NCBI GenBank assembly: GCA_905479925.1
Contig: CAJQOL010000009.1
Coordinates: forward strand, 1 to 64,000
Source: an uncultured Kangiellaceae bacterium
GTDB taxonomy: Bacteria; Pseudomonadota; Gammaproteobacteria; Enterobacterales; Kangiellaceae
DNA length: 64,000 nt
Reading direction: 5' to 3'
Shown: positions 11,562 to 40,479 of the stretch, piece by piece
How positions within the stretch are numbered: position 1 is the stretch's first letter
Layout of the letters: every line of letters begins with the position of its first letter
Translations under genes and position numbers: made by a program
The notes under the pieces: generated by a model
Told to the model about the DNA's origin: nothing
The model's input: the letters and a program-made list of their open reading frames with translations, nothing else
Database searches by the model: none

Positions 11562-11650
11562 CCAATTGAGGGGCGCTGCAGCAGGCCAGTTAATTCTATA
11601 ACTTGGCTTGTCACGCTCAGTTGGATCTTCATTTTTTAAAGGGCGCTCAT
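11562..11650 (+). promoter_or_regulatory. S-adenosylhomocysteine (SAH) riboswitch upstream of ahcY
   Basis: The sequence shows the layout of the SAH riboswitch. P1 is formed by CCAATTGAG (11562-11570) and CTCAGTTGG (11616-11624), nine pairs with one G-U. Straight after P1 comes GGGCGCTGCAGC, matching the conserved GAGCGCTGCRRC core. The inner arm pairs GCCAGTT with AACTTGGC (one bulge). After P1 a short linker leads to GCGCTC (11643-11648), which pairs with GGGCGC at 11571-11576 to make the closing helix of the family. The Shine-Dalgarno GGAG at 11665 and the ahcY ATG at 11677 follow. In known cases SAH binding switches on ahcY, so excess SAH triggers its own removal. A covariance-model scan was not possible here. 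Confidence 0.87.
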
Positions 11651-11676
11651 TCTGAACCTAGAATGGAGACAACCTA

Positions 11677-21603: not shown

Positions 21604-22045
21604 TACCTAGTCGTATCCATTCAAATCGTTATTCATCGTCAATCAAAATTGTCGCTTAAGCTCATCTTGATTCGTTTCCGTTAAAACGCTCTCCCCCTAA
21701 CCCTTTGCATCAGGTCGCACAATTATCATCAGGAGCAAATGATTACATTGTAGATGTGCACCTTAGCAATACGAATAAATAGCTGTTCAATTGCCATTAG
21801 TTCTGTGACTTGATAACAGTGGTTGATTCTTGCGATCTAAATCCGTTGTGAAAATGCTGTAACTATTAATAATTGCGGATTACTTCAATTTCACCTCCAG
21901 AAATTCTGCATTTTTTTGAGCGAACGAATCTATACTATGTTTGAATATGTTTGAGAAAATATGCTGTACTCGCTGTCTTTTGGCCTGGCTGCCAGTAATT
22001 GCCATGACCGATTATCAAAAATAATAGAAAGGCTTTTTGACTAGA
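21604..22045. other. 442-bp intergenic region upstream of the TIR-WD40 gene
   Basis: AT-rich, with no small gene, terminator or tRNA seen. The gene that follows has an AAAGG near its start. No promoter pair was convincing. Confidence 0.45.
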
Positions 22046-25000
22046 ATGGATCACAATAAAATAGAATATCATGCATTTATTTCCTATCGACACCTTGATA
22101 ACGTTGAGTCTGGACGGCAGTGGGCGACTTGGCTACATCAAACAATCGAAACTTATCGAGTGCCAAGCGAACTAGTTGGAAAAATTAACAACCGTGGAGA
22201 GCCGATACCAGAGAGAGTTTTCCCTATCTTTAGAGATGAAGAGGCGCTTCCCGCTGATGCCGATTTATCGAACTCAATCGTACGAGCGTTAGAACAGTCA
22301 AAATTCCTTATCGTTTTATGCTCGCCACGCTCACGTACATCAACATTTGTGGCGGATGAAATTGACTACTTTAAAAAACTTGGCAGAAGTAATCACATAA
22401 TCGCCGGTATTATCGACGGCGAGCCTAATACGAGTTTAGATGACGGAAAGATTGACGCAGGTTTCACCAAGCAAGATGAATGCTTTCCTGAACCGCTGCA
22501 ATATACCTATGATGAAAAAGGTAATCGAACCAATAATCGTTCTGAACCCATTGCTTCAGATTTTCGTCTGACATTAGACAATAGAAAGCAACAAGGGTGG
22601 ACTAGCCCAGAAGCATTAAAACAGTACTTAGTTCAAAAAGACTCATTTAGTAAATCACAGATCAAAGAACTTTGTACGAGCTACGAAAAACAAATTAACC
22701 TGATGCTGCTCAAGATTATTGCTGGAATAATTGGTGTTCCACTGGATGATCTAACTCAAAGGGATAAGGAGTATCAATTAGCTCTTGAGAGACAGCGTGC
22801 TAAACGACTGACCCAATGGTTAGCAGCTATCGCAGTTCTCGCAATTATGGCGATAGGTGCTGGGGCGATGGCATGGCAACAAAAAGAGCAAGCAACCAAA
22901 GAGCGCAATAGCGCGCTCAGTACTCAAAGCCTTTTTCTCGCAGATCTAGGGCGCCAAAAATTTGATGAGCACCGTTATAATGAAGCAGTGCTTCTTGGCC
23001 TTAACGCCACACCCGGCCATTATGGAGGTGAACGCCCCTTAGTAGCCGAAGCTAGAGATGAACTCTACAGGGCAACAATCAATCAATCGAAACTGCAACA
23101 GTTTGATCATTGGACTGCTAATAAATTTATCATTTCGCCGGACCGTTCAACCGCGCTACTAACCTATGTTGCTAAAGCAGAGATTGTTTCTTTAACAAAT
23201 TTTGGCGTTGCGCATACTCTCACATACCGTAACAACCAGAATAGTTTTGAAAATATTGTGTCAGCTGACTTCGATAAGCCTAGCGAACGACTTTTAGTTG
23301 GAACAAAAAGTACATTTGCGCTAAATGCCGGTGAAACATACGAAGAACGCCTCTATTCAGGTACGGTTGAGTTGTGGTCGGTCAAAGGTGGCAATAAGTT
23401 GTTGAGCGTTGATTATGATGAGCCAATCAATAAGGTCATATTTAGTCCCGATGAGTCAAAGGCGTTGGTAGCTAGTGACAATGGAACGGCAAGTGTTATT
23501 GACTTTTCAACCGGCTCAATCGAGTTAACACTAGCTCATGAAGCCGCGGTGACTTGGGTAAGCTATTATGATGATGGGAATAAGCTCCTTACGATGGCTC
23601 AAGATCAATCGATAAAAATCTGGTCTGCCGATACTGGAGAAAAAATTCACTCGTTTGAATTTGATAACCAACCTGTTTCAGCTGTCATCAGTAATGATCA
23701 ATCGTTGCTGTTGGTGACTTTAGAAAACCAAGCCGATCTTTATTCTTTAGACTCATTTAAGCGAATTCAAAGCTATCCTCATAATTCCAAGGTTCCAGCA
23801 ATTTTTTCATCAAAAGACAACGTATTGACCACCGAGTACTATAGCATTTCAGAATCATCCACTCTGGATGGGGAAATACTAGCCATTTCAAGCTACGCTC
23901 ATGAAGAGGCTCTGAAATCAATGAAGGTCATCGGCGATAAGTTAATTTCAACCGATAGCAATAATCGAATTTATATTTGGTCAATGACTGACAAACGTTT
24001 ACTCAAGCAATTTAACCATGACGCAACAGCCGAGGCTCTTGAGCTTTTTGAAGAGCATAACAAACTGATAACCTCCTCAGACAGCGGTATCGTCGTTTGG
24101 GATGCTTCCCCTGAGTATAAAGATAATTATCAACTAAGCCCGGCGGAGACCTTTATCGAGCGACCTCGCTACACGCCATCAGGAAACAATATTGTCGACT
24201 CGGTGAATAACAAGCAAACTAAGTCTTACTTTCGGCACCTGCCAAGTAATAACATAGTTCATGGTGAAACGGTTTGGCCGGATCAGTGGAAAATGGCCTA
24301 CGACCATCAATCTCGAAAAGTTCTTTTACCCAAGTACCGCCAAAATGCAACTTTACTGTCGCTGGCCAGCCATGCGAGGATAGAGCTTCTAAAATCATCT
24401 CAAGTCGACTTAAGGGACGCTGTATTCAGCGCCGATGACCAGTCTTTGGCGCTAGTAGGATCGTCGATAAAGATCTATGATACCAATGACGGAACTATTC
24501 TTTTTGAGTTAGAGCATTCGGGCTCTACAAAAGGTTTCTTTATAAACGATGATTCGGAGTTTGTGAGTTTTTCCCAATACGATATGATTTTTTGGTCATT
24601 AGAAACAGGAGAAACGATTGGCAAGTACAGTATCGATAAATCCTTCTCCATCAAAGAAATAGCTTTAACTCCGAACAACAAAAATATTTTTATATATTCA
24701 GAAGGGAGCTATCGTCGATTTAAGCCTACTAAGGGCAGGTCTTATCTTATCTCGCCCGAAAATAAGAAAGCTCTTTTTACCTTTGAGCATGAACGCAAAA
24801 TAGATGAACCTCTCTTTTCCGCCGATGGTAAAATTTTTGTGGCGCCCGGGGCAGATCGCTTCTCCGAAAGTTATATCACCTATTGGTCTCTTGAAACCGG
24901 TAAAAAACTAACGACCTTAGAACACAACGGCTTTATTGAGAATGTTGGCCTTGCCAAAAACGGAAAGTATCTTTATAGCTGGACCGATGAAAAACACAAA

Positions 25001-26542
25001 ACGAAAACAGCAACATCTGATCGTGCTAAGGCGCTTCAAATTTGGAGTTTCCCTGGCGGTAGCAAAATTAGTGAAGTCCTGGTTGACCATGACCTACGCC
25101 GAGTAGAATTTAATTCTGACAGTTCTTATTTTCTGACAAAAGATGGCTACCAACAAGCAAAGCTTTGGCACACCACTAGTGGTGACTTGGTCAAGCAGTT
25201 TTCTGAGGAAGACTCAAACTACCAGCTAAGTCCCATCGAGAATAAACTGTATGTTTCTCGTAGCGATAAGACGCTTGAAATCTATTCGGGGCCCAGCTTT
25301 GAAAACGTAAAATCGATGACTATTGGTCATAAAGTTTCTGAAATTAAAATTTTCACCAACAACTCAACCCTAGCATTAGTTGGCGATGGGATATCGTTAT
25401 TGTCATTTGAAGACAAGCTACTACTTCATGACAAGCAGGCAAATTTTATTAGTCCTACTGGGGAAACGTTTTTCGCGAGCACGCCTATCAACGAGAATGT
25501 CATCAATGTTCGAGTTGCAAACGAGGGAATAACACTTAAGAGTTTTGGTCCATTTCTCAACCCGCCGACATTTACTATCGACAGAAAAGAGCGGTTTATC
25601 GCCGTAATGAGCACCGGCGCCGATAAAACATCGCACGCTCTGCAAGTGTTTGACTTCAACAGTGGCAAATTAATTAAAAATCTAAATATTGAAAGTGAGC
25701 GCTATTACTCTCCAACTTTTACCTTGGGCGGAGACTCTATTGTTTATAATTTCACTCCTAAATCGTTAAAGTCGTGGTCACTATTGGACAGTAGTCATAG
25801 CTATAAACATTCGGAAAATGTCGAGAATTTTGCCATTGGCACAAAAGGAGACCTTCTCGCCGTTTACTCCGCAGACCATAGAGCCGACATCTTTCGTATC
25901 ACCCTTTGGTCAATAAAGGACCAGAAAATAAAACTAGACCTTCCGCTGACCAGTAAAGTTTATGGTATGGCTTTTGACGATAAACAAAGCTACTTAGCTA
26001 TCGACCAGTCGGACTCTTTCAGTTTAATCAACCTTAACGACTTCGAAATCGAGAAAACCATCAGCGCAGACACCTATGTAACTAAACGGCACAACTCCAT
26101 TAGTTTTTTGGGCAATAGATTGCTGAGAGTACGAAGCGAAATCAACTTGTGGAATTTATCGACCGAGTCAATCGAAATGAATTTCGATTCCAAAACAAGG
26201 ATTGGCGACGTTTACAGTTATGAAACAGATTCGGAGCTAGAGAAGCTACTAATAAATCACAGCGATGGTGGAACTCTTTTTTCAATTGATACCGGAAAGC
26301 TCTTACAAACATTTCCAGAAAATCTGCAATCATCAGGTTTTAGCTCTCAAGGACTACCGCTAGTTTTGACCGATGTCGGTGCTAAAAGAGCTGTATCAAC
26401 CGACAATATTGAGTTTGAGCAACTCTATGACTATGCCGCTTCAAAACTTATTAATAACAAGCGATGTTTGACCGACAGCCAAAGAGCGCTTTTCTACCTA
26501 CCCACAGTGGATGATGAAAATGTAAAGAAAAAAGGCTGTTAG
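22046..26542 (+). CDS. TIR domain / transmembrane / WD40-repeat protein, 1,498 residues
   Basis: The protein has three parts. Residues about 5-210 are a TIR-like domain. It opens YHAFISYRH, has FRDEEALPADADLSNSI and IVLCSPRSRTSTFVADEIDYF. The Glu in VADEID (105 from this start) takes the place of the catalytic Glu of NAD-cleaving TIR domains. One transmembrane helix (about 255-277) follows, with RQRAKR before and KEQATKER after it. The remaining 1,200 residues are WD40-like repeats, seen as IKIWSADTGEKI, IYIWSMTDKRL, IFWSLETGETIG, ITYWSLETGKKL, ALQIWSFPGG, ITLWSIKDQK and INLWNLSTE. That is enough for two or more beta-propellers. By the charge pattern the TIR is cytoplasmic and the propellers periplasmic. 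A TTG at 22037 is an alternative start. No defence genes are adjacent. Roles as NADase or stress sensor are inference. Confidence 0.88.
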   Translation: MDHNKIEYHAFISYRHLDNVESGRQWATWLHQTIETYRVPSELVGKINNRGEPIPERVFPIFRDEEALPADADLSNSIVRALEQSKFLIVLCSPRSRTSTFVADEIDYFKKLGRSNHIIAGIIDGEPNTSLDDGKIDAGFTKQDECFPEPLQYTYDEKGNRTNNRSEPIASDFRLTLDNRKQQGWTSPEALKQYLVQKDSFSKSQIKELCTSYEKQINLMLLKIIAGIIGVPLDDLTQRDKEYQLALERQRAKRLTQWLAAIAVLAIMAIGAGAMAWQQKEQATKERNSALSTQSLFLADLGRQKFDEHRYNEAVLLGLNATPGHYGGERPLVAEARDELYRATINQSKLQQFDHWTANKFIISPDRSTALLTYVAKAEIVSLTNFGVAHTLTYRNNQNSFENIVSADFDKPSERLLVGTKSTFALNAGETYEERLYSGTVELWSVKGGNKLLSVDYDEPINKVIFSPDESKALVASDNGTASVIDFSTGSIELTLAHEAAVTWVSYYDDGNKLLTMAQDQSIKIWSADTGEKIHSFEFDNQPVSAVISNDQSLLLVTLENQADLYSLDSFKRIQSYPHNSKVPAIFSSKDNVLTTEYYSISESSTLDGEILAISSYAHEEALKSMKVIGDKLISTDSNNRIYIWSMTDKRLLKQFNHDATAEALELFEEHNKLITSSDSGIVVWDASPEYKDNYQLSPAETFIERPRYTPSGNNIVDSVNNKQTKSYFRHLPSNNIVHGETVWPDQWKMAYDHQSRKVLLPKYRQNATLLSLASHARIELLKSSQVDLRDAVFSADDQSLALVGSSIKIYDTNDGTILFELEHSGSTKGFFINDDSEFVSFSQYDMIFWSLETGETIGKYSIDKSFSIKEIALTPNNKNIFIYSEGSYRRFKPTKGRSYLISPENKKALFTFEHERKIDEPLFSADGKIFVAPGADRFSESYITYWSLETGKKLTTLEHNGFIENVGLAKNGKYLYSWTDEKHKTKTATSDRAKALQIWSFPGGSKISEVLVDHDLRRVEFNSDSSYFLTKDGYQQAKLWHTTSGDLVKQFSEEDSNYQLSPIENKLYVSRSDKTLEIYSGPSFENVKSMTIGHKVSEIKIFTNNSTLALVGDGISLLSFEDKLLLHDKQANFISPTGETFFASTPINENVINVRVANEGITLKSFGPFLNPPTFTIDRKERFIAVMSTGADKTSHALQVFDFNSGKLIKNLNIESERYYSPTFTLGGDSIVYNFTPKSLKSWSLLDSSHSYKHSENVENFAIGTKGDLLAVYSADHRADIFRITLWSIKDQKIKLDLPLTSKVYGMAFDDKQSYLAIDQSDSFSLINLNDFEIEKTISADTYVTKRHNSISFLGNRLLRVRSEINLWNLSTESIEMNFDSKTRIGDVYSYETDSELEKLLINHSDGGTLFSIDTGKLLQTFPENLQSSGFSSQGLPLVLTDVGAKRAVSTDNIEFEQLYDYAASKLINNKRCLTDSQRALFYLPTVDDENVKKKGC

Positions 26543-27044: not shown

Positions 27045-27833
27045 TTAGTGGCTATGGCCATGCTCATGTGCATCGCCAGAAACCGGATACACGCCTTTCT
27101 CGCTGCTATAATAGGAGGTTTCGGAATGTGCGATAAATCCAAGATTGATCATCTTTTGAAGAAAAGGATCAGACTCGTTATCTCCTACATCCGCATAGTC
27201 AACGAGATCAAAATTATCGTATTTTTTAAAGTAAGCGTTTACAGCAGTTGGTTCGGTCTCTAAGCTCATTAATTTCCATGTCACTTCTCGAACATAGGTA
27301 TTCAGCTTAAATTTTTCAGGTAGGTTATATTTTGTTAGTTTCAATACTTTCGCAGTTTCAGTGACGTTAGCTTTCGCGTTAACCCGTTGAAAGGAGGTTA
27401 AAACTTTGCAATCGTTTTGCGTTGTTTCGGTGACATCCATTGTGCCAAACATGCTTTGAGTAATCAGTCCTTTCTTGTCTCCCCAGCTATCGGATGCTCC
27501 CGCTAAAATTTCATTCGGCTGATATTCAATCCCTTTTTCAAACTGATCGAAGTATTTAAAGAGCTTCATTTTGCCATTTTTAGTAAGCTCCCAAATCTCT
27601 GAAATATCATTTTGGGTATAAATAATTTGGTTTCTCTGCCGCGCAAATAACAAAGACTTTTTTTCCTTTTTTCCGTTCTTTTGAGTCGTCTCGATTTGGT
27701 AGAGAGCAGCGACGCTTTGACCGGAACCAAGTTTTTCCTGACTTTCGCAGCCATATTTGGCAGCTAACACCTGAGGCGTTACAAGGAAAGGAGTGACAGC
27801 AAAAATAAAGAAAGTAGAAATTCGTTTTTTCAT
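27045..27833 (-). CDS. Exported hypothetical protein with a histidine-rich C-terminus
   Basis: The 262-residue protein has a signal peptide (MKKRISTFFIFAVTPFLVTP, cleavage near VLA-AK) and mature text that I do not recognise. Two cysteines (CESQ near the N-terminus and DCKV in the middle) could form a disulfide. The charge pattern is basic in the first half. The last 10 residues (DAHEHGHSH) are rich in His, which often binds divalent metal ions. It follows a Fur-controlled small gene on the opposite strand. Start: ATG at 27833; a TTG at 27842 is possible but less likely. A metal-linked role is inference from the tail only. Confidence 0.7.
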   Translation of the reverse strand: MKKRISTFFIFAVTPFLVTPQVLAAKYGCESQEKLGSGQSVAALYQIETTQKNGKKEKKSLLFARQRNQIIYTQNDISEIWELTKNGKMKLFKYFDQFEKGIEYQPNEILAGASDSWGDKKGLITQSMFGTMDVTETTQNDCKVLTSFQRVNAKANVTETAKVLKLTKYNLPEKFKLNTYVREVTWKLMSLETEPTAVNAYFKKYDNFDLVDYADVGDNESDPFLQKMINLGFIAHSETSYYSSEKGVYPVSGDAHEHGHSH

Positions 27834-27972
27834 TTTAATCAAAGCTCATTTAGCAATGTTTACCAATGCCGCTAGATTAGTTTTGATTTATTTCATCTAT
27901 GTGTCTTTTGTTTGACAGTAATATTACAGTCACAAGAATTTAACAAGGAAGGAATGGGCTAGTCACTAATAA

Positions 27973-28241
27973 CTAGTACTCGAACACAGGGATTTTGATG
28001 AGTTCAGAGTTCACCCAACAATCTAGTGCAAGGCGTGATTCGAAGGGAATGGCTAGCCCTTTTCAAGAGTCACAACACTGTAATAGATTGTTGGGTGAGC
28101 TCCCTTCGGGCCAGTCGAGAAGCCGGCCAGCCCGTTGTTACTCCCCTTTGAAATAGCTTGCTAGTCCCGCAGGTGAGCGCCTAGCTCTAACCGACTTCTC
28201 GGCTGGCTGAACTCATCAAAATCCCTGTGTTCGAGTACTAG
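27973..28241. mobile_element. 269-bp element with perfect 35-bp terminal inverted repeats (MITE-like)
   Basis: Bases 27973-28007 and 28207-28241 are exact inverted copies of 35 bases, beginning CTAGTACTCGAACACAGGGA. Inside is a second pair: TCACCCAACAATCT at 28011-28024 and AGATTGTTGGGTGA near 28086-28099. Further in, CGAGAAG-type and CTTCTCG arms can pair. The element holds no protein frame. It may be a miniature inverted-repeat transposable element, with CTAG at each end as part of the repeat or as a 4-bp target duplication. The left flank also carries GGGCTAGT about 14 bases further out, mirroring the right flank. No transposase for it is in the window. Confidence 0.82.
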
Positions 28242-28347
28242 CCCTTTGAAAAGAATAGATTGTCCAATTATTACAGGAGCTGTTTATTGCTACCAGCTCG
28301 CTCTTCCAAGCCGGCAGTCAATTTTAACTTGCTGAGATTACAGCTTT

Positions 28348-31300
28348 TTATTCCAAAACTATCTTTCTCATATTGTCATTAGAATTACGGTCAATCATCT
28401 TAATATAAGGATCAACACCGGCATATTCCGGCAATGTCTCTACTTCGATGACTAACGAATTTTCTCCTTTTTCTATCGTATGCTTCTCAAAATAGATGAC
28501 GTGCTCACTACCCTTACTTTTATCAGGGTCCTTTGAGAAAATACCGATATCAAACGGCGCAGATAAATCCGTTTCCGTTTCTTCGCCCTGACCGTCCGCG
28601 TAGAATTTATTAGCCTCAACCGTAAGAGTCAATTGGTAATTTCCATTATCCAATTTTTTAGCGGTCGCCTCTTTCATTTTTAAATCAAAAATCGTTATCT
28701 TCTTAAACAAATCGTCGATAAACGAATAATCCTCTTGATTGGCTTCAGCCTTTAAGAAGGTCAACAGATCTAAAGTAGTCGGATAGGGGTCAGCCACGTA
28801 TTGAAACTTCTCTAGGAATTTCTTCAAAGCCGTATTAACAGCTACTTCACCCATTCTATCTCTTAAGGCGTACATCACAACACCGCCCTTCTGATAGTGG
28901 ATATATTGCTGATTTTCAGCCCGGTACAGAGGCATTTCTTCTATCACTTCTGCACTTCGTCCTCTAAGGTAACGGTCCATTTCCCATTTAAGAAACTTTC
29001 TCAACTGGTCCTTACCGAGGTGTTTTTCCATTACCATATAAGCGGAATATTCCGATAACGTTTCAGATAGAACCGCGCTGCCCTGCACATTCGCTGGGGT
29101 AATTTGATGACCCCACCATTGATGCGCCATTTCGTGAGCAGTTACGAAATAAACATAGTCAATCGCATCGATATCTCTTAGGTCTGCGATGAATCCAATA
29201 TCTTCTGAGTATGGAATGGTATTCGAGAAACTCTGAGCGAAACTGGCATACCGTGGAAATTCGATGATTCTTACTTGACGATGCTGGTAAGGTGAAAACT
29301 GCTCACCAAAATAATCCAATGAATCTTTGACAGACTTTACCATTCGCTCCACATTTTTATCGTGCTTAGGATGATGGTAAACTTCAATCTTAACGTCGTT
29401 ATGAACATCTTCCTTAACTTGGTAACTACCAGATAAAAAGGAAACAAAGTTGAAGATAGGTGCATCCATTTTATAATGGTAGTAATTGCGACCGTTTTCA
29501 GTCCATTCCTTTTGCAGATAACCAGGAGAAATAGCGAACTGATCATCACTCGTCGAAACAATGGTTTCGAAGTTAATGAAGTCCGCTTCCTTACCGATAA
29601 AATTAGTTCCGTATTGAGATTCATCTTCTAACTTAGGTAACCGCTGTGGTGGTGGTAAGTCATGTTTACGTCGTTCATGTCGATCACTTATTTCACCGCC
29701 AGCGTTATAGCCAAAATGTGGGAATATCGCAAAGTTATTAACGAAGGAACCGTTAGCAACTACACCAGTATCTGAACCACGGTCCACAAAACCTTTGTTT
29801 GAACGCTCAAACTCAAAATCTAAACGGGAGCTACTTCCTGCCTCCATTGGAGGATTAAATTCGATCCAAGTAATTCCATATTGTTCGTCTCTTTCACCTT
29901 CGGAAGCGCCGTCAATTGAGAAAGATAACGATCGATTCTTGCCGGAATCCCAAGTCAACATCACTTTTTCTAACGGTGTAGAATTTTTGTTGGTTATTAA
30001 ATAATGACCTTTGGCCACTAGCTTTCTTTCCGTTGGATAAAAATCAACTTCCGCATAAACATCAGTAATTGTAGGCACTTCAAGATTTTCAAATTGTTTG
30101 TATTTCACTTCAAAAGCTGCCTGTAGGTCTAAGCTTTCTTCACGTGATACGTAATCATTCAAAACGCGAGTGTTGTAGTATATAAAACTACCTGTACCAA
30201 CAAATGTCACTAAACCGATAAAGATTGATGCTAGACCTAGTGTTCCCATATTTTTTGTTAACATCTTAAAGCGATACTTTAATTCATACTCGCTTCCTCG
30301 TCGCCATAAACCATATCCCAAGATAATAAGGATAAGAGTAAACCCGCTCCAATAAAGGTTGTACCAAAACCTAGGCTGTAAGAAATGACCATACTGATTA
30401 ATATCTGAGTAAACCATTCCAGGTGCCTCACCAAAATGCCACATATTATGCTCGAGGCCTAACTGTGAGAGCACGACCGTGGAAATAATGTAACCAACAA
30501 ATATCATCATTCCAATATACTTGTTTGGGCTAAGCACCTGAATCAAGATAGCCAAAATCGTCGTCATTACCATAGGCACAATAAAAGTAAGTGCTAGAAT
30601 TCCAAAATACACTGACCATTCGAAGTTAGCGTATGATTTTGTCATTTGATAAAAAACGGTGAAGGCCATTCCTGCTAAGCACAAACTGACAATAACGGAT
30701 ACTAACGCCAACAGTTTGGGAAAATAGATACTCCAGTTCTTAGTAGGAGTACTTTCGACAATATCCCCAATCCCTAAGTTTCTTTCTTGCCAAACAATCT
30801 CTGCGGAGTAATAGGTCATAACTATCATAACCATGAGTCCAAACGCGCCAACAATGTAGTCCGCCATATTTCTAGTCAATGGCCAATTGCTGGTCCCAAA
30901 CGAGCCGTTACTATCAAAGAACAATGTAATAAGCATGAACATGGAAAATACGCACAAAATAACGAATGGTGCACTTTTAATGATCTGCAGCACTTCGAAT
31001 CGTGTCCTAGCGAAGAATCGCAACCAATCGACACCTATGCCGTTCTCGGGCTTGCTTAATTTGAATCGTGAAGGTGGTTTTAGAGTACTAAGTTGTTTAT
31101 TCTTTTCTGATTTGATGTTTTTGGGTTTTCTTACATCATGGAAGTAGTGGGTTAAACCGACTAGAAGTAGAGTGACGGCCATCCAAATAACGCGATTGAC
31201 AAGTAGAACGCCTTCCAAGGGTACCAAATTGTTGTTTCTTTCGAACGGTGTCCAGTATTTAGTTAACTGACTAAACGCACCAAAACCAAGTGGATCAAGA

Positions 31301-39890: not shown

Positions 39891-40479
39891 TCTGATCTCC
39901 AAAGTTAATATCGATATACTTTTTCAACTTCGCTATCTTTTTCTACAATTGATTTTAAATTGACTACAGTTATGAACAGCATAAAAAATGGACGAAACTA
40001 ATCATACAAAGAGTTTGGGGGGGCTTAACAAGGGTATGCATACGTATTCAATGAGATATAAGTTGAGATAATGGCTATTCGAGACAACAGCCAATTAATA
40101 TAACGCCGAATAAAAATAGAATTGTTATTGTGGTGGTTTTACTGATAGCTTTGCGTAGCGAACGGTCATGAAAAAACTGCGGCAACTAAAAACGAAAAAT
40201 TGGGCGTTAAGTGAGAATTTTTGCAAGAACTAAACTTAGCAATACGAACATTTACTTGCCCTATTTTCGATGAAAACTTTCGCCCAAATTTGTTATCCAG
40301 AAGCGAACATTATTCAAAAAGTTAAAATGCGTTTTGCGATGAATTTTTTTGTACAAATAGGATTGTTTTTTCATAACAGATACAAACACCGAAAGCTGGT
40401 AAATTTCTAGATTTAGAAATTTACCAGCTTCAATTAGAGCTGTGTTTTATTTGCGTAACTTTGATAGGACTTACTTACG
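39891..40479. other. 589-bp intergenic region between amylase and tricorn-type pseudogene
   Basis: AT-rich and gene-free. Its only clear structure is a 17-bp perfect hairpin at 40393-40430. Promoter of the leftward amylase gene should lie at the left side (about 39890-40100). Confidence 0.5.
40393..40430 (-). terminator. Perfect 17-bp hairpin, probable terminator of the tricorn-type pseudogene
   Basis: AAGCTGGTAAATTTCTA pairs exactly with TAGAAATTTACCAGCTT over a 4-base loop. It lies 50 bases beyond the stop codon of the leftward tricorn-type gene. The T-run is weak, so it may instead protect the 3' end or bind a protein. Confidence 0.55.

Follow-up and report, generated by a model that had tools for sequence, protein, structure and literature searches.

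A probable diverged copy of a MITE-like, three-hairpin repeat family in a Kangiellaceae genome

The palindrome at positions 27973-28241 of the window (the whole stretch of 64,000 nucleotides of Kangiellaceae DNA that was analysed) is very probably a full-length, though highly diverged, copy from a family of MITE-like repeats that are mobile but non-autonomous. The ends of this family are ERIC-type (TATACCC...CAAGATGCA) in most members, and three hairpins lie between them. The assignment rests on the architecture and core in common, dispersal in one genome and through the order, empty sites at two sibling loci, intergenic location and paired changes in the stems. By analogy with other MITEs, copies would be mobilised by a transposase provided in trans and acting on both arms. 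In the window copy the terminal motif would have become TAGTACTCG while the arms stayed identical over 35 bp. Most likely this copy is either the only sampled representative of a subfamily whose arms differ, or an old copy whose arms were homogenised in place by template switching, the two being about equally probable. Its effect on neighbouring genes, if there is one, would be incidental.

The element is 269 bp long and its two 35-bp arms, the left at 27973-28007 on the plus strand and the right at 28207-28241 on the minus strand, are 100% complementary across a spacer of 199 nt, as the initial annotation had stated. They form the longest perfect inverted repeat in the window among arms starting within 400 bp of each other. 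Just two other inverted repeats of at least 14 bp occur in the window, one of 15 bp inside the element (28011-28098) and one of 17 bp at 40393-40430; the latter is perfect, has a 4-nt loop and is perhaps a terminator-like hairpin. Compared with 100 dinucleotide shuffles each, the fold of 27955-28255 gave z scores of -14.2 as RNA and -12.1 as DNA. The terminal stem (P1) is defined by this complementarity and by its register with the 31-nt TAC...CAG arms of 18 aligned siblings. Outward of the arms, GGGCTAGT at 27956-27963 pairs with ACTAGCCC at 28237-28244, and both this left continuation and the right one, CCC at 28242-28244, are included in the minimum-energy fold. The arms can accordingly be read as 38 bp long, the left one bearing a 14-nt insertion (27964-27977, or equivalently 27959-27972), which bears out the earlier remark that the left flank mirrors the right as if a short insertion had occurred there.

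Three internal hairpins follow on the plus strand. The first, P2 (28007-28102), is placed by the fold, by alignment with the 18 siblings and by pair counts. Its arms (28007-28030 and 28079-28102) are 24 nt long and 88% complementary; this is the nested pair of the initial annotation, with a perfect run of 15 bp rather than the 14 bp first given. P2 holds the most conserved core (28029-28070, with GGGAATGGCTAGCCCTT), which stands out in the sibling alignment and on which many BLAST matches centre. The other two hairpins are additional to those first described. They are a mini-hairpin, CCCTTCGGG at 28102-28110, or CCCTTCGGGC at 28102-28111 when read as the CCCnnnGGGC found in nearly all siblings, and a second long hairpin, P4, at about 28110-28207, whose outer stem (about 28110-28122 with 28195-28207) is supported by the fold and by pair counts. 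No listed open reading frame of at least 60 aa overlaps the element, in agreement with the view that it carries no gene. Allowing up to 2 mismatches, the 12-base inner part of the arm (TGATGAGTTCAG) has 13 occurrences in the window, compared with 4.7 expected, and none of 100 shuffles reached this number.

Both neighbours of the element are read on the minus strand. An ORF of 265 aa starts 130 bp away, with the element upstream of it, and an ORF of 1190 aa has its stop 106 bp away on the other side. No terminator-like site was found in 27800-28400, and the one promoter-like site (27912-27939) lies outside the element, promoter-like sites being no more numerous than in shuffled sequence. Elsewhere in the window, a SAH riboswitch was annotated on the plus strand at 11562-11655 (46.5 bits, gathering score 37). 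The ORF of 1501 aa at 22037-26542 starts with a stretch that resembles a TIR-type domain followed by WD40-like repeats, as judged by eye from its translation.

The family plan consists of 31-nt arms running from TAC to CAG, a hairpin around the core, the CCCnnnGGG(C) mini-hairpin and a second long hairpin, with most members measuring 264-270 bp. The whole window element has no second copy in its own genome, but its core matches further places there that show the same plan, and at least 8 other full-length family copies are present. A 21-mer of the family end, allowing up to 3 mismatches, was matched 24 times in this genome, 12 times on each strand, compared with 0 matches for the reversed control pattern. 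These 24 ends resolve into 8 full-length pairs, 2 shortened pairs and 4 unpaired ends. With the own genome counted throughout, BLAST relatives were found in 4 of 6 genomes of the genus (E 0.01) and in 6 of 40 genomes of the Kangiellaceae-level set (E 1e-6), while the core covariance model R1 matched 76 of 295 genomes of the order, representing 25 of 100 genera; copy numbers from R1 are lower bounds because 13 candidates were scored per genome. The window copy scored 109.5 bits with R1, having been part of its training set. No relatives of the element were found on plasmids, and the exact 24-mer core had no match in the genome_contigs collection. In Rfam no family matched the element at its gathering score, and the single sub-threshold match (30.9 bits, with 70 required) was unconvincing.

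Two sets of elements were used for comparison. The first comprises 19 elements including the window copy; L021, L026 and L029 (elements of 314, 195 and 335 bp) were left aside, the element script returned none for L009, L013, L056 and L059, and L028 has no separate row, reading the same as L027. L056 is part of the core model and absent from the 19-element alignment. The second set has 43 rows and includes 24 of the 29 order loci, without L063, L068, L073, L080 and L083; it holds 42 distinct elements, since L064 is the same place as L055, and L080 is likewise the same place as L056. None of the 19 elements is wholly covered by an ORF of at least 90 aa, a test that scored whole-element coverage and left partial overlaps above 40 bp uncounted; mechanical ORF calls extend 13 and 18 bp into two of the elements. 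Incomplete derivatives were also seen. Near position 1501 of L045 and near 1501-1580 of L035, copies of about 47 and 70 bp keep both arms and have lost the inner hairpins, as if these had been deleted, and in L013 (680-1040) the element stops in the middle of P2, with unrelated sequence thereafter.

Evidence of movement comes from two sibling copies in G001 compared with G002, another species of the genus, where the flanking sequences are separated by 5 bp at one locus and 18 bp at the other, not by about 270. Both sibling loci tested are thus empty in that second species, and the family is therefore mobile in the manner of MITEs. The initial proposal of a MITE is supported in so far as the core and architecture recur and two sibling loci have empty sites; it draws no support from the 35-mer itself, which is seen in this element alone, so that the many dispersed copies typical of MITEs belong to the family and a single-copy arm sequence to the window locus. 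The window element does have the terminal inverted repeats, the length below 500 bp and the absence of coding capacity that characterise MITEs. A single copy in the genome without an empty site in relatives had been named as an argument against mobility, and this describes the arm sequence at the window locus but not the family. At that locus, the 265-aa neighbour has no match in the five relatives of the genus, two of which are genomes of 75% and 82% completeness. For the other neighbour, three homologues were read; the 700 bp downstream of them hold other genes, with no element visible by eye.

In 11 of the 18 siblings a TA dinucleotide adjoins the TAC end on both sides, in the remaining 7 it does so on one side, and the G002 empty sites are too diverged for a target duplication to be read from them. 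The suggestion that the CTAG at both ends of the window element is such a duplication finds no support, as TA stands at the same place on at least one side in 18 of 18 siblings. As for the other suggestion, that CTAG belongs to the repeat, CTAG is its own reverse complement and reads equally well as the tip of the arms. A search of the own genome for a full-length transposon with the same ends, also proposed initially, recognised none beyond element size among the 24 family ends, the four unpaired ones having been read about 320 bp back and about 420 bp on. No transposase was found for the family. On contig C25, two family elements lie about 5 kb apart.

The arms set the window copy apart from its siblings. 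Among the 29 order loci, the script found the core in 27 (L064 duplicating L055), and 26 of these 27 have ATACCC in the left arm, L083 being the exception. Within the 19-element set, TACCC is missing from both arms in the window copy alone; one arm of L058 reads TACTC, and one arm of L011 is shortened by a 1-nt deletion. Apart from that deletion, all 19 elements keep the same TAC-to-CAG register of 31 nt. The window copy keeps this register and has TAGTACTCG as its terminal motif, the TATACCC end being absent.

These ends invite comparison with ERIC (enterobacterial repetitive intergenic consensus, RU-1, 127 bp), which resembles the family in being dispersed, intergenic, palindromic and geneless, and most sibling arms end in TATACCC. 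However, the family element is about twice as long, contains three internal hairpins, and in the window copy lacks the ERIC end. ERIC is not known to have an autonomous partner. REP/BIME elements, which are associated with RAYT transposases, are intergenic palindromes that fold as single strands; from their general features they are like the family in this respect and unlike it in being far shorter and without long terminal arms. Names in general use for bacterial MITEs include Correia/NEMIS, YPAL/RU-2, MITEAba12 and QMITE2. By the description in PMC10969869, bacterial MITEs share with the family a short length, absence of coding sequence, inverted arms and a presumed mobilisation in trans.

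Sibling arms were compared in register with the E. coli ERIC sequence printed in Table 1a of PMC2759123. For 29 of 36 sibling arms, 16-19 of 24 positions match an ERIC arm; among 2000 shuffles with the first five bases kept in place, no more than 22 do as well. The remaining 7 arms (both of L020 and L057 and one each of L007, L011 and L012) reach 7-15 of 24. The arms of the window copy match at 11 of 24 positions, a level attained by 686 and 688 of 2000 shuffles. When whole elements were compared, 14 of the 19 members were equalled by at least 27 of 300 ERIC shuffles; the five better ones were the window copy (4 of 300), L007 (13), L027 (9), L055 (4) and L058 (5). Plain ERIC membership was rejected, as the whole-element comparison does not rise clearly above shuffles for those 14, and the term ERIC-type is kept for the arms of most siblings; a more distant link is possible for the rest. 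Most siblings carry TATACCC...GGGTATA ends and the window copy does not, and neither the 127-bp length nor the ERIC core sequence is found in this 269-bp element. It is not an ERIC. In openly available work on MITEs and ERIC-like elements, and on the end sequence and core motif, we found no description of the family; subscription papers lay outside this survey, among them Zo 2011, which reportedly deals with reductive divergence of ERIC and may describe longer relatives.

The stems of the family show extensive paired change. For 79 pairs predicted alike from both strands in 19 elements, 96.7% of cells pair, compared with 31-43% when the partner is slid by 1-3 columns, although on this measure the control favours the structure, which was derived from the same sequences. 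Changes on both sides affect 56 of the 79 pairs and every helix, with 269 cells differing on both sides, and none of 500 shuffles reached any of five measures. The initial suggestion of a structured RNA or DNA repeat is in keeping with this abundance of two-sided change, which supports a structured nucleic acid. The window copy is again extreme, in that its arms are identical to each other at 31 of 31 positions and yet differ from each sibling at 12-19 pairs changed on both sides (15-19 against each of 17 siblings and 12 against L024).

Two accounts of these private, matched arms carry most of the weight. The first, a serious candidate although short of an even chance, is a recent insertion of an unsampled subfamily distinguished by its arm sequence and perhaps also by a transposase of its own. 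Arms vary between genomes while remaining paired, so subfamilies with different arms exist, and perfect 31/31 arms also occur in L023 and L025, both of which have close siblings. The sampled sequences argue against this account. The arm sequence, whose copies the initial annotation had proposed to count, occurs nowhere else in the own genome (94.8% complete) or in the relatives searched; a 22-mer of it, with up to 3 mismatches, is absent from 393 other genomes of the order and 39 other genomes of the family (overlapping sets), and the exact 35-mer had 0 matches in the genome_contigs and viral_contigs collections, which may omit the own genome. Furthermore, the other arm pairs seen carry TACCC or a slight variant at their ends, except for L083 (by script) and the viral L127 (by eye).

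The second account is plausible, if not probable on its own. It holds that an old, immobile copy diverged and that template switching during replication then copied one arm onto the other, in one long or several short events. The two-sided differences just described, which leave the arms alike and in register, speak for this account, as does the complementarity that extends beyond the arms into GGGCTAGT and ACTAGCCC. In 12 closely related (young) siblings, 7 matched two-sided changes were counted, compared with about 0.25 expected from independent hits. Template switching has been reported to create and repair stems (PMC8794818, PMC8604942). On the other hand, one-sided changes in the same 12 siblings exceed the matched ones by 32 to 7, and the matched pattern could equally arise by inheritance from different source copies. 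The window copy is without a close relative from which an event could be reconstructed, and the 31/31 arms of L023 and L025 indicate that perfect arms alone need no homogenisation.

Retention of the element as a structured RNA or regulatory hairpin, for instance one that processes or stabilises read-through RNA between the minus-strand neighbours, is unlikely. Its strong fold and the two-sided changes in every helix would suit such a role, and PMC10969869 reports effects of ERIC and Correia elements on mRNA levels. A strand signature was also sought. First counts on a structure predicted from the plus strand gave 43 G-T against 5 A-C in P2 and 45 against 7 in P4, but a plus-strand RNA signature over the whole element was rejected when pairs predicted alike from both strands were used, which left no excess in P4 (8 against 7) and a smaller one in P2 (13 against 4). 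In the 43 rows, the both-strand pairs gave plus-strand G-T to A-C counts of 22/27 in P1, 39/9 in P2 and 19/31 in P4, and the union of both predictions gave 22/75, 94/31 and 78/104, respectively; counted as pair types, P2 had 17 G-T and 5 A-C. The plus-strand lean is thus confined to P2, for which a strand-specific folded form is possible from these counts. Against an RNA role, P1 and P4 show no plus-strand excess, the folding energies of the two strands are much the same over the set (-133 and -138 kcal/mol), copies occur in either orientation relative to their neighbours, Rfam yields no match at gathering score, and both neighbours of the window copy are read on the strand opposite to the P2 bias.

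We also considered a combination in which stems are renewed by arm-to-arm copying in replication and a strand-specific factor recognises the folded plus strand of P2. Movement would then proceed through a folded single strand and not as in an ordinary double-strand MITE, a reading to which we give little credence. Chance or an assembly artefact is highly improbable: the perfect arms do lack a second copy and the assembly is a draft of 224 contigs, but the element shares family homology and register, and the window holds no other close inverted repeat that is perfect over 35 bp.

As a mobile repeat, the family provides many copies of a three-hairpin palindrome, in one genome and across the order, with two-sided changes in its stems. 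It constitutes a natural data set on the origin of compensatory changes, where selection on a folded molecule can be set against template switching from arm to arm, and the window copy, with arms both private and perfectly matched, is its extreme case. As a practical warning, covariation alone does not mark a bacterial repeat as a functional RNA.

Two loci deserve separate mention. The IMG/VR viral contig L127 (6900-7100) contains the exact 17-mer core and a similar hairpin with GC-rich stems of different sequence, TATACCC ends not being seen by eye in the printed stretch. At L057 (2416-2845), a match to the cspA thermoregulator just below threshold (70.8 bits, gathering score 78) adjoins the sibling element.
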